DNA from: Phycisphaerales bacterium
Lineage (GTDB): Bacteria; Planctomycetota; Phycisphaerae; Phycisphaerales; SM1A02
Direction of reading: 5' to 3'
DNA length: 64,000 nucleotides
NCBI GenBank assembly: GCA_029242715.1
Contig: JAQWTL010000012.1
Span: 1-64,000, forward strand
The notes below the pieces were generated by a model, which was not told the DNA's origin, made no database searches, and was given only the letters and a program-made list of their open reading frames with translations. Position 1 is the stretch's first letter, and each line of letters opens with the position of its first letter. This document shows positions 38,921-44,785 of the stretch, in pieces. A program made the position numbers and the translations under genes.

Positions 38921-39127
38921 TCAGGCGGCTTTCAGTGACTGGTAGGCGTCACAGCTGCTGATCGGACTGACCTTCAGGTGCAAAGCTGCATTCGAAGGCA
39001 GATCACAACCACCAAGGATGTTGCCGTCACTCGATCCATTAACCCTGATCTGAACGAGTTGCTCGTTCGGTACACCATCGCCGAAGTGGACGCACGTGCT
39101 GCAGGAACCATTGTTGCTGTTGGACAT
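38921..39127 (-). CDS. Small cysteine-containing protein, unknown
   Basis: A 68-aa protein with four cysteines: CSTCVHFGDG near the N-terminus, GGCDLPSNA in the middle, and SSCDAYQ close to the end. The spacing suggests a metal or iron-sulfur site. A strong Shine-Dalgarno (CCGGAGG) lies six bases before the ATG, supporting that this is a real gene. No family could be named. It is transcribed towards nuoC, upstream of the convergent stop. Confidence 0.65.
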   Translation of the reverse strand: MSNSNNGSCSTCVHFGDGVPNEQLVQIRVNGSSDGNILGGCDLPSNAALHLKVSPISSCDAYQSLKAA

Positions 39128-42200: not shown

Positions 42201-42436
42201 GCGATGGAATCACCACTGCCGGCATCAAGATTTTCCGGCCCGATCAGATCAATCACGTCATCTGCCTGGGCGAGTTTGTTTTCCTCGGCAGGTCGATCCA
42301 CGATGAGAATGATCGCCAGGATCAGCATGCTGCCACCAATTCCGAGCCATGTCATCTTCCAGGGTTTTTTCGTGGCGCGTTTCGCGGAATCTTCGGAAGT
42401 GAGCAGGACGTTACGTTCATGCCGTTTGGATGTCAT
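39263..42436 (-). CDS. Giant LptC/OstA-like LPS export protein
   Basis: A 1057-aa protein with a basic cytoplasmic N-terminus, one TM helix (WLGIGGSMLILAIILIV, about residues 30-46) and a very long periplasmic part. The periplasmic part contains several OstA/LptC-like beta-jellyroll segments, for example ALAYAPHRALEEGQFNGNV, ATFDNFLGKIACEGRIEL and VDYDTRTQIATLTARPG. LptC bridges lipid transport from the inner-membrane ABC transporter to LptA; normal LptC is about 190 aa, so this is five times longer. The M at 42436 overlaps the kdsC stop (ATGA), so the longer ORF start at 42484 is rejected. Last gene of the kdsD-peptidase-kdsC-lptC operon. Confidence 0.75.
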   Translation of the reverse strand: MTSKRHERNVLLTSEDSAKRATKKPWKMTWLGIGGSMLILAIILIVDRPAEENKLAQADDVIDLIGPENLDAGSGDSIADMVDPRMGLNLPRGGWIQVADSDGRLAQQYRCQHLDPDPVELDAYWIEMERPEVELYMSRNRLVTLTGDSALAYAPHRALEEGQFNGNVRIEMYDPVDGQPADPLIDTPALIIRTPRATFDNFLGKIACEGRIELETPREEMAGRDLQILLNDQDQRIEYLRMAKLDFLRIRATPTPPRTARKQTTARLVRRQLPPTTAPAASDDPASFYRLTLHDGVRIRQGDGPSARTAIGEELNLTFSLESEQLEQPTASTSAPAIVYSTAPPNIPALAASMVMGTTMLEQNNDIIVTCGGEVTMVPLIELSEHLEDPRDARLNLLGSPVRIEDPQRRLRITCPEVQYHTLAKRFDLLGDESTDVDLLTDRFRAEGSWMWASPEFGEAGFIDPGTIEVIAGSPLAQAVQQEAGNESYLTGMAVDPTEEGDDSAVQLKLTWQGGVDIEFDPDDPQGNGPDGDPALRSILFRDEVAVRSDDGTIDCGSLRMNFTRGQDGGSEPERMVALENVRARNDDQTLWTDQLIVTMEALPDDAPAQAAAGEDDLLGGRVNVKDFLATGDVQVVLADGGRAFADRLEGDARQEIAVLTGNNVTVARKEMLIDHGRRLVISRLDGTANWDGPGEARLLRYPLDVSEDRRIDRPEIPTAPPAGNADDRQANDDIDRGPITMRARWNDQMVYDSRHNDGAGSLELKGKVAVIADGSPTERSTMDGESLTLQFAFAPEDNAAANASDTPARPANDPLDISGLEQNSRVLETLIAKGDARLEHREWIGPRREDLPKVFYIAAKHITWNDLTVQAEVIGDGTMVIREPERPGEAIEAEGPFSGPGTTRFVWSKRLDMDRKPGNRFELSMLGNVEGIYKGATDDDIATVTANRIDAMTKRSSIKEAADQDNPLDFQGDMEIERLRAEGTVYLATPRRRADANVVDYDTRTQIATLTARPGRKVSIVTEGSPLPVKATKMVWNMDPRIDSIQLVEPSGTGVR

Positions 42437-42969
42437 GCCTGGCCTGCCTTTGCATGGTTGAACTGGCTGACGAGATCTTCCCATTCGCCATTGGCCATGA
42501 GTATCGCCTCGATGGCTTCACGGATTGCGCCGTTTCCTCCCGTTCGTGTCGTGACCCAATCTGCTGCCTGTTTGACTTCATTGACCGCGTTGGCCACGGC
42601 AATGCCCAGGCCAGCAGAACTGACCAGGGGGAGATCAGGCAAGTCATCACCAATCATGGCAGCTTCTTCTGCGGGGATGCCTGTCTTCTTGAGGATGCTT
42701 TCCCAGGCAGGTCGTTTGTCGCCCTGTCCTTCTGCCAGCAGTTCGATTCCAAGCTCCTTGCACCGGTCACGCAATGGCTTGGACGCCCGGCCTGTCACGA
42801 CTGCAACAGTGCGACCTGTGGATTGCCACAGGCGAATGCCAAGGCCGTCATGGATATGGAAGCACTTGGTTTCACGACCATCTGCATCAAGCAGGAGACG
42901 TCCGTCGGTCATTACGCCGTCGACGTCCAGGCAGAGCAGGCGGATACGGGCTTTGCCTTCAGGAAACAT
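42433..42969 (-). CDS. kdsC: 3-deoxy-D-manno-octulosonate 8-phosphate phosphatase
   Basis: A HAD-superfamily phosphatase releasing Kdo from Kdo-8-phosphate. The 178-aa protein has motif I DVDGVMTDG (Asp15, Asp17), VAVVTGRASKPL as motif II, and GDDLPDLPLVSSAGLGIAVANA as motif III/IV (two adjacent parts, GDDLPDLP and GLGIAVANA). Size fits the tetrameric KdsC group. Overlaps lptC by four bases. Confidence 0.92.
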   Translation of the reverse strand: MFPEGKARIRLLCLDVDGVMTDGRLLLDADGRETKCFHIHDGLGIRLWQSTGRTVAVVTGRASKPLRDRCKELGIELLAEGQGDKRPAWESILKKTGIPAEEAAMIGDDLPDLPLVSSAGLGIAVANAVNEVKQAADWVTTRTGGNGAIREAIEAILMANGEWEDLVSQFNHAKAGQA

Positions 42970-42999
42970 CAGGTTCCAGTGTATCCGGGGGAGGGGACT

Positions 43000-43572
43000 T
43001 CAGGCTGTGGGGACGTGGACCAGGTCGATTTGTCCACCACAGTGCACATCCAGCCGGCAGGCGACCTTGACCGCTTCGCGGATGAGGGCGTCATCATCAT
43101 CCAGATGATTCCAGAGGGCCTCGATGGCACCCAGGGCATACTCACTGCCCGATCCAATGGCAGCATATTGCTCGAACCCGGTGACACCCAGGTCACTGGA
43201 CACCTTGAACAGTCCACCCCGACCGGCCACCAGGAAGGAGGAGTCGAGGTCTGTGAAGGGGGTATCTTTCGAGTTGGCTTGATCGTTTACGAAGGGGTAG
43301 CCATCTCGCATTGAACGCCAGAGATCCAGGAAGAAGGAAAAGACACTCTTTTTGGAAGTGAGGTTCGGTGGATCCTTCTCCTGCATCCAGTGATCGATGA
43401 TGTCATCGTAGACAGCCCACCCGGTCCCACCGATGAAGGCCTCGCCCATGGGGAGGATCTTTCGAGTGGCACAATTCTCGGGTGGTGCTTGTTCACCATC
43501 ACCAAAGCAGGTGAGTGAATCGGCACCCATGGTGATCTTTCCATTGCGATTGATTGCGACGATGATTGACAT
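43000..43572 (-). CDS. Proteasome-like Ntn hydrolase (HslV/BPH-type)
   Basis: A 190-aa protein starting MSIIVAINRNGKITMGADSL, the first strand pattern of HslV and related bacterial proteasome homologues, whose N-terminal Thr is the nucleophile after Met removal. Here the residue after Met is Ser. The GADSLT Asp (about residue 18) and a Lys in ATRKIL (about 38) occupy the expected catalytic positions. The middle (FGDGEQAPPENC, FIGGTGW, FLVAGRGGLF) and YAAIGSGSEYALGAIEAL resemble the BPH (beta-proteobacterial proteasome homologue) subgroup more than HslV. No HslU gene is in the window. It sits 17 bp after kdsD and 30 bp before kdsC, so it is likely in their operon. Confidence 0.8.
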   Translation of the reverse strand: MSIIVAINRNGKITMGADSLTCFGDGEQAPPENCATRKILPMGEAFIGGTGWAVYDDIIDHWMQEKDPPNLTSKKSVFSFFLDLWRSMRDGYPFVNDQANSKDTPFTDLDSSFLVAGRGGLFKVSSDLGVTGFEQYAAIGSGSEYALGAIEALWNHLDDDDALIREAVKVACRLDVHCGGQIDLVHVPTA

Positions 43573-43589
43573 GTTTCGAGCCTGGCAGC

Positions 43590-44663
43590 CTATTCGACAA
43601 CGATTCGGGGTGACATCAGATCCTGGATATCGATCATGCCCACTGGTCTGCCCTGGGCATCCACCACTGGAATTTCATCGATGCGATGTTCGGCAACCAT
43701 TTGCCTGGCGTCCATGAGTTGCTGGTCCTCGGTCAAACGCCTTGGTGCAGAAGTCATGACTTCTGAAATCGGTTTCTCAAGTGGTTTGCCTGGTTGCATC
43801 ACCAGCCGCCTCAGGTCTCCATCAGTGAAGATTCCTGAGAGGATTCCATCGTCATCGACGAGGATGATGGCTCCGGAATGTCGCAGTGTTGATGATGTTC
43901 CGGTTTCGCAGGCCTGCTCCAGAGCCTTGCCTACAGTCAGGGAGTCCTGCAGGACCGTCAGGTTTTCACCTACGCGGAACCGAAGCAAGTCGCCTATGGG
44001 CCGTAAGCCATCGCCCAGTGAGCCGCCGGGATGTCGCTGGTGGAAGTCTTCCTCGTTGAAACAACGGCGGCGTGCAACGGCCAGGGCCAAGGCATCGCCC
44101 ATTGCCAGTGTCAGCGTGGTTGATGTCGTTGGTGCCAGACTTAATGGGCAGACTTCTTCGAGTGGGCCAAGTGCCAGATCAGCATCGCAGAGTCGAGCCA
44201 GATCAGAATCGTGCGAGGCTGAGACAGCCAGTCGCTGGACGCCATCAGCTCGAAGAAGGGTTGCCAGGCTGATGACTTCCTCGGTACGGCCCGAGTGGCT
44301 CAGGAGCATGACAACATCATCCTTGCGGATCGCTCCAAGATCACCATGGACGGCATCGGCAGGATGCACCACATGTGATGGGATTCCCAGGCTGGAGAAC
44401 GTGGCAGAGATCTTTGCTCCGATCAGGCCTGATTTGCCCATGCCACTGAGAACAACATGTCCCTTGCAGGCATCGATCATGTCGATGGCCTTCTGCCAGT
44501 GGCTGGCCTCCTCGGCCTTGCCTGAAAGGGCTGCGGCCAATTGGCTCAGGGCAGTGGCTTCACCTTGAAGAATCCCGGCTACGAAGCTGATCTCGGTCCC
44601 GGCAGGCTCGGTGCCTGGGGATCCTGGATCATGGGGCTTGGATGAAGTGGGTGATGTAGTCAT
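43590..44663 (-). CDS. kdsD: D-arabinose 5-phosphate isomerase (SIS + two CBS)
   Basis: Converts ribulose 5-phosphate to arabinose 5-phosphate, the first step to Kdo. The 357-aa protein has an SIS domain (VVLSGMGKSGLIGAKISATF, then DAVHGDLGAIRKDDVVMLLS and HSGRTEEVI), APTTSTTLTLAMGDALA, the connecting NEEDFHQRHPGGSLG, and two CBS domains (about 220-350, FTDGDLRR and PVGMIDIQDL). Met at 44663 was chosen; 23 extra residues to 44732 have no homology feature. First gene of a minus-strand operon. Confidence 0.93.
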   Translation of the reverse strand: MTTSPTSSKPHDPGSPGTEPAGTEISFVAGILQGEATALSQLAAALSGKAEEASHWQKAIDMIDACKGHVVLSGMGKSGLIGAKISATFSSLGIPSHVVHPADAVHGDLGAIRKDDVVMLLSHSGRTEEVISLATLLRADGVQRLAVSASHDSDLARLCDADLALGPLEEVCPLSLAPTTSTTLTLAMGDALALAVARRRCFNEEDFHQRHPGGSLGDGLRPIGDLLRFRVGENLTVLQDSLTVGKALEQACETGTSSTLRHSGAIILVDDDGILSGIFTDGDLRRLVMQPGKPLEKPISEVMTSAPRRLTEDQQLMDARQMVAEHRIDEIPVVDAQGRPVGMIDIQDLMSPRIVVE

Positions 44664-44785
44664 GGAAGAAGCCAGTGGGGCGTTATGATGCTCAGCAGGT
44701 TGTGGGGCCTGGCAGCAGGCTGGTGCAGGCATTGTATCGCCTGGCAGGACCTCCTCGCCTGATCCGTTCCCTCTTCCTCGTTGCC

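Follow-up and report, generated by a model that had tools for sequence, protein, structure and literature searches.

Bacterial proteasome homologs (BPHs) are relatives of the proteasome and HslV, and their structures have been solved from Thiobacillus denitrificans (Td-BPH) and Cupriavidus metallidurans (Cm-BPH) (5ovs, 5ovt, and 5ovu). According to the main text of PMC5777263, Td-BPH carries its active-site residues at Asp17, Lys37, and Gly50, the two characterised BPHs (Td- and Cm-BPH, both with Thr-1) are inert in vitro on peptides and casein, and the BPHs outside the Betaproteobacteria, stated for all of them (Fuchs 2017), have Ser-1 and are spread sparsely over phyla. The same main text describes CodW of B. 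subtilis as also using Ser, and the main text of PMC8665760 describes connectase as a ligase of the proteasome superfamily. Neither main text reports a partner, a substrate, or an activity of a BPH. BPH is thus far a solved structure without a function, and the genomic context described below gives a first lead to its role.

The DNA analyzed here (the window) is a stretch of 64,000 nucleotides from a Phycisphaerales bacterium and contains a BPH gene between kdsD-like and kdsC-like genes (table 1). The BPH gene is real, and its probable start codon was chosen by the conservation of Met-Ser among relatives. The original prediction had placed the gene 17 bp from kdsD and 30 bp from kdsC on a common strand, and both spacings are exact (43573-43589 and 42970-42999). 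The names kdsD and kdsC are used at the level of families, since the two products reach the curated cut-offs of TIGR00393 kpsF (242.2 bits, cut-off 203.7) and TIGR01670 (160.6 bits, cut-off 106.95) and miss the strict equivalog cut-offs for KdsD (216.3 bits, cut-off 505) and KdsC (PRK09484, 160.9 bits, cut-off 208). The kdsC stop codon is overlapped (ATGA) by the probable ATG of the large LptA/LptD-N-domain protein, which matches PF03968 (25.1 bits, cut-off 20.4), stays below the cut-off of the LptC model (14.5 bits, cut-off 38), and looks like an LptC/LptA-type fusion that is far longer than usual, LptC and LptA normally being much smaller. Relatives of this protein are encoded behind kdsC in most BPH-containing loci and in nine out of 12 loci that lack BPH. 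In the window, the LptA-like gene is followed by a short Cys-bearing ORF.

Table 1. Features at the BPH locus of the window.
Feature	Position	Strand	Basis or remark
KdsD-like arabinose-5-phosphate isomerase (SIS + CBS), first gene of the set	43590..44732	-	TIGR00393 kpsF
Ser-1 BPH (bacterial proteasome homolog), 190 aa	43000..43572	-	ORF, stop included; domain, fold, and sequence matches
BPH start codon (probable)	43570..43572	-	Met-Ser at the start of 60/60 scanned loci
Codon for predicted Ser nucleophile	43567-43569	-	directly after the BPH start codon
KdsC-like Kdo-8-phosphate phosphatase	42433..42969	-	TIGR01670
Large LptA/LptD-N-domain (LptC/LptA-like) protein, ~1057 aa	39263..42436	-	PF03968
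68-aa ORF, several Cys	38921-39127	-	without Pfam match; 4 loci, window included

The window protein is nearest to the solved BPHs in both sequence and fold, rather than to HslV or the proteasome, which corrects the original prediction where it had set the protein apart from BPH. The protein matches the Pfam Proteasome family (E 8.5e-6, 26 bits, cut-off 22.4), and its best PDB sequence matches are two BPH sequences (E 9.5e-19 and 3.4e-16). The best fold matches of an AlphaFold2 monomer model (mean pLDDT 90.7, pTM 0.88) are Td-BPH (5ovt, Z 25.5 over 179 residues at 2.0 Å) and Cm-BPH (5ovu, Z 21.9), followed by proteasome and HslV chains with Z about 19, and Foldseek ranks 1-6 are all BPH chains. 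Residue 2 (Ser) of the model superposes on residue 1 of the BPH chain, the catalytic Thr, and after removal of the Met the window protein has Asp17, Lys37, and Gly50, the numbers reported for Td-BPH in the main text of PMC5777263. Based on the sequence and fold matches, the superposed Ser, and the identical numbering, the window protein is a BPH with Ser in place of Thr. The predicted Ser nucleophile in a proteasome-like fold agrees with both the model and the translation, which opens Met-Ser-Ile-Ile (minus strand, 43572 to 43000). Read from the sequence, the nucleophile follows directly after the Met without a propeptide; the Thr1 of the Betaproteobacterial prototype is absent and Ser2 stands instead, which fits the Ser-1 subfamily. 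At the position of BPH Ser139, which hydrogen-bonds to residue 1, the window protein has Ser141 (140 after Met removal), a correspondence of residue identity only, and Ser occupies this position in 52 out of 60 sequences. Membership of HslV was rejected, as the protein has a related fold but lies far below the HslV cut-off (TIGR03692, 29.3 bits, cut-off 157.75), and a true HslV is encoded separately in the genome.

The window protein shares with Td- and Cm-BPH the fold over its whole length, the lack of a propeptide, the Asp17, Lys37, and Gly50 positions, and a long pore loop. It differs from them by its Ser for Thr1, and Ser-type BPHs carry Cys at the proteasome Ser169 position (59/59) and a VNDQ...SPFGDLD-type pore loop where Td- and Cm-BPH have acidic loops. 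The gene neighbors also differ, being argG, PDC, or hsp33 for Td- and Cm-BPH and kds genes at the window locus. The replacement of Thr by Ser is not new, because Ser-1 BPHs are already described in the main text of PMC5777263; compared with those proteins, which share the Ser nucleophile and the sparse spread, only the Kdo/Lpt context of the window is new. A search of plasmid collections returned no match to the window BPH, and phage collections returned two records with 28-31% identity. The PHROGs family "peptidase HslV family" matches the window BPH (E 4.1e-20), indicating that distant phage relatives exist, which is no mark of this gene being phage-borne.

An alignment-based scan of one genome per species (84,980 species) identified 60 loci (L043-L102) within the Planctomycetota, Gammaproteobacteria, Myxococcota, Verrucomicrobiota, KSB1, KSB3, Sumerlaeota, and others. 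The scan pattern covered residues 105-113 (the SPFGDLD part of the pore loop), so that it picked relatives with this loop and would miss BPHs with other loops, and the 60 loci do not represent BPHs as a whole. The start of the protein was not read by the pattern, and a Met-Ser start was found in all 60 loci. Residue counts over 60 sequences refer to the window and 59 loci; L102, which like L076 is cut by a contig end, was omitted from these counts and from the trees. Ser2, Asp18, Lys38, and Gly51 (the last three being 17, 37, and 50 after Met removal) are each present in 60 out of 60 Ser-type sequences, which bears out the claim that the catalytic Asp and Lys are kept. Three further alignment columns were equated with proteasome Ser129, Asp166, and Ser169, an assignment that follows what is known of the family. 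Ser129 is Ser in 52 out of 60 sequences and another residue in eight, Asp166 is Asp in 32 and Asn in 24 out of 59, and Ser169 is the Cys noted above. The variability at Ser129 and Asp166 suggests that part of the family may have altered or weak enzyme activity. The pore-loop motif VN(D/N)Q...(S/T)PF(G/T)(D/E) is present in all 18 Ser-type sequences of the set that was found without the motif, while its second half is present in the 60 scanned loci by selection. The Cys and the pore-loop motif represent two additional hallmarks of the Ser type, neither of which was found named in PMC5777263. The pore loop of the window protein has a BPH-like length and a net charge of -3, and the mean charge is -3.0 in the kds group (37 sequences), -4.7 in other Ser-type sequences (23), and -4.1 in seven rows labelled Thr.

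A pattern-free draw of 392 Planctomycetota genomes gave 12 matches besides the window's own, consisting of five Met-Ser, five Met-Thr (L036, L037, L038, L039, and L041, with an in-frame TAG in L039), and two unsettled sequences. Of the latter, L042 contains two stop codons and lacks a readable start, and L040 has no ATG, would have Ser if it started at GTG, and displays Glu at Asp17 and a loop that resembles the Thr type without the Ser-type motif; L040 was labelled Thr in the trees and in the residue and charge counts. The five Thr readings argue against the published statement that all BPHs outside the Betaproteobacteria have Ser, unless all five are binning errors. Twelve of the scanned loci L043-L102 seem to be shared with the genomes of this draw or of the survey of the order described below, and the sets are not independent.

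The kds neighborhood of BPH is conserved within one group of loci. Searches by tblastn with the three neighbors from the window found at least one of them on the BPH strand, upstream or downstream, in 36 out of 36 loci (L043-L078, the kds group), and none of the three in the 24 other Ser-BPH loci (L079-L102), the flanks being short at some of these. Among the kds-group loci with enough sequence, kdsD lies <500 bp upstream of BPH in 30 out of 35 loci (<40 bp in 24 out of 35), kdsC lies <100 bp downstream in 24 out of 35, and an LptCA-like gene lies <1.5 kb downstream in 32 out of 33. Either kdsD or kdsC adjoins BPH within these distances in 35 out of 36 loci; in the exception (L047) the contig begins 37 bp upstream and kdsC is located 748 bp downstream with another ORF in between. 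The order kdsD-BPH-LptCA is kept in eight loci that have no adjoining kdsC (L050, L052-L056, L058, and L060). The protein identity to the window BPH falls to 43% within this group, which indicates that the linkage does not result from recent copying. The kds linkage in the Phycisphaerae holds inside one group (35/36 loci) and is absent from the other Ser-BPH loci (0/24). Among the matches listed from the open-licence literature (supplements excluded), none reports a BPH in a Kdo context, the main text of PMC5777263 does not mention Planctomycet, Kdo, kds, or LPS, and that of PMC8665760 does not mention Kdo or lipopolysaccharide. The Kdo-gene context of BPH was not found in print.

The order was surveyed in 61 genomes, consisting of 37 from the family of the window and 24 from other families. 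Matches were obtained in 28 genomes (13 BPH and 15 weak); 13 of the 15 weak matches are at HslV places, and the remaining two (G021 and G032) look like chance. BPH is present in 13 out of 37 genomes of the family and absent from 24, and none of the 24 genomes from other families has a strong match. The Kdo genes are nearly universal (kdsD over the cut-off in 58 and kdsC in 57 of the 61 genomes), and both are retained in 22 out of the 24 family genomes without BPH, which shows that BPH is not needed for Kdo synthesis. In genomes without BPH, kdsD and kdsC lie within 600 bp of each other in six out of the 22 family members that have both genes and in 15 out of 24 genomes from other families. Twelve of these 21 sites, from five families, were inspected. 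Eleven contain kdsD followed by kdsC with gaps of ~20-180 bp between alignments, leaving no room for BPH, and in the twelfth (G013) a STAS-domain gene (L138, about 975-1477) fills a gap of ~505 bp. Because relatives without BPH can carry adjacent kdsD and kdsC genes, the simplest and probable account is that of an older kdsD-kdsC pair into which BPH was inserted, with a later loss of BPH in part of the family. A tree of the family, which is poorly resolved (10 out of 35 inner branches starred), needs six changes for BPH. A BPH tree that included four HslVs was set aside, as a very long HslV branch joined the genus of the window. When HslV, L036, and one PDB row were left out of the tree, two changes were needed for the linkage label (the least being one), and the kds-linked sequences form one side of a branch in 51% of 200 bootstrap trees. 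A single origin of the kds linkage is likely rather than proved; the kds-linked sequences resemble one lineage, in which the linkage probably arose once and was then inherited.

These data were combined into a model in which the Ser-1 BPH forms a chamber, is encoded between Kdo genes, is co-expressed with them, and has a role in envelope-linked protein quality control, a proposal to which we give about an even chance. Removal of the Met would expose Ser1 as the nucleophile, assisted by Lys37, Asp17, and the oxyanion hole at Gly50. The subunits would form a closed double ring (a tetradecamer of ~287 kDa) that encloses the active sites and has a flexible pore loop at its opening. Most likely, BPH would trim or degrade unfolded or flexible proteins that enter unaided, as no ATPase is encoded beside it. 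In one Phycisphaerae lineage the BPH gene would have entered an older Kdo/Lpt set between its kdsD and kdsC genes, and it has mostly remained with these genes; BPH would be co-expressed with the Kdo and LPS-transport proteins and most likely serve quality control linked to the envelope. The family assignment, the fold, the active-site residues, the kept neighborhood, and the BPH-free sites are computed results; the oligomer, the activity, the co-transcription, and the tie to LPS we infer, the last of these from gene order alone. The lineage keeps BPH among the genes of one pathway, so that substrates can be sought more narrowly among Kdo, lipid A, and Lpt proteins; if such substrates proved right, a proteasome relative would be at work in the construction of the outer membrane.

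Nearly as likely as a role in envelope quality control is that BPH is a passenger of the operon, performing general ATP-independent proteolysis (stress clean-up) with the Kdo set providing its promoter and nothing linking it to LPS. Other Ser-BPHs reside in unrelated contexts (none of the 24 with kds genes), the published BPHs adjoin argG, pyruvate dehydrogenase, or hsp33 (main text of PMC5777263), the STAS-domain gene of G013 shows that the kdsD-kdsC gap accepts inserts, and a wider block of genes is syntenic as well (scpA in 30 out of 36 kds-group loci). A mere passenger fits less well with a BPH that stays beside kdsD or kdsC in 35 out of 36 loci down to 43% identity, and with the finding that kdsD and kdsC are not neighbors in 16 out of 22 BPH-lacking family genomes with both genes, yet the BPH linkage is kept.

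It is unlikely that the Ser-nucleophile barrel was recruited into the Kdo/LPS-transport set as a dedicated outer-membrane-biogenesis protease; if true, this would be the first physiological role for a BPH and would tie proteolysis to LPS output apart from FtsH or Lon. The level of LpxC is under proteolytic control in other bacteria, and the original prediction accordingly suggested that the peptidase may control the level of an LPS enzyme. As such a regulator, the barrel would degrade one LPS enzyme (such as LpxC, WaaA, KdsD, or an LptCA protein) and thereby set LPS output. The genome of the window encodes LpxC and a PF04413 (WaaA-type) protein, and the co-location of BPH with Kdo genes is conserved. 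Such a regulator is possible, with location as its one support, and we rate its chances as low: the kds linkage is restricted to a single group, 22 family genomes dispense with BPH while keeping kdsD and kdsC, and the Thr-1 BPHs in the literature lacked peptidase activity in vitro (main text of PMC5777263). Degron-like tails were also sought by eye and rejected. The C-termini of KdsD are alike in 33 loci with BPH that contain the gene and 12 loci without BPH, and the tails of KdsC vary in both sets (25 and 12 loci) with no feature common to the BPH-containing loci. KdsC ends in Gln in 10 loci with BPH, all within one subgroup, which we read as descent and not as a signal.

Equally small is the chance that BPH is not a bulk protease at all and acts as a specific processing enzyme, as a ligase like connectase, or as a catalytically weak chamber. 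The inert behavior of Td- and Cm-BPH on standard substrates (main text of PMC5777263), the ligase activity of connectase within the same superfamily (main text of PMC8665760), and the variable supporting positions of the active site are consistent with such a role, whereas the conservation of Ser1, Asp17, Lys37, and Gly50 in 60 out of 60 sequences is as expected for an enzyme under selection.

The original prediction that no hslU is visible is correct for the window, but the genome carries both hslU (G000:C30:497340-498653) and hslV (G000:C22:75846-76373), and as these are located on other contigs the absence from the window says nothing. HslV is over the cut-off in 13 out of 13 family genomes with BPH and in 8 out of 24 without (Fisher p 7e-5, by genus 0.0024); when kinship is considered, only two independent contrasts remain (sign test p 0.5), counted on branches with good support in a tree that is poorly resolved, and a co-occurrence of BPH and HslU, strong in raw counts, was rejected as not significant on the tree. 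That BPH uses HslU as its unfoldase, as the raw HslV counts would suggest, is very improbable given these two contrasts and the main text of PMC5777263, according to which BPH does not conserve the HslU-interface residues and pull-downs did not recover HslU. In the genome of the window, hslU and hslV lie on different contigs, far inside them as judged by coordinates; in G039 the two genes are neighbors.

A different neighborhood was observed in another Phycisphaerae group, in which the Ser-BPH is divergent from an ABC transporter pair in four out of four loci (L094, L095, L098, and L100). In L100, the one locus searched for domains, the pair consists of a solute-binding and permease fusion and an ATPase with a TOBE domain, and we read the pair as molybdate-like.
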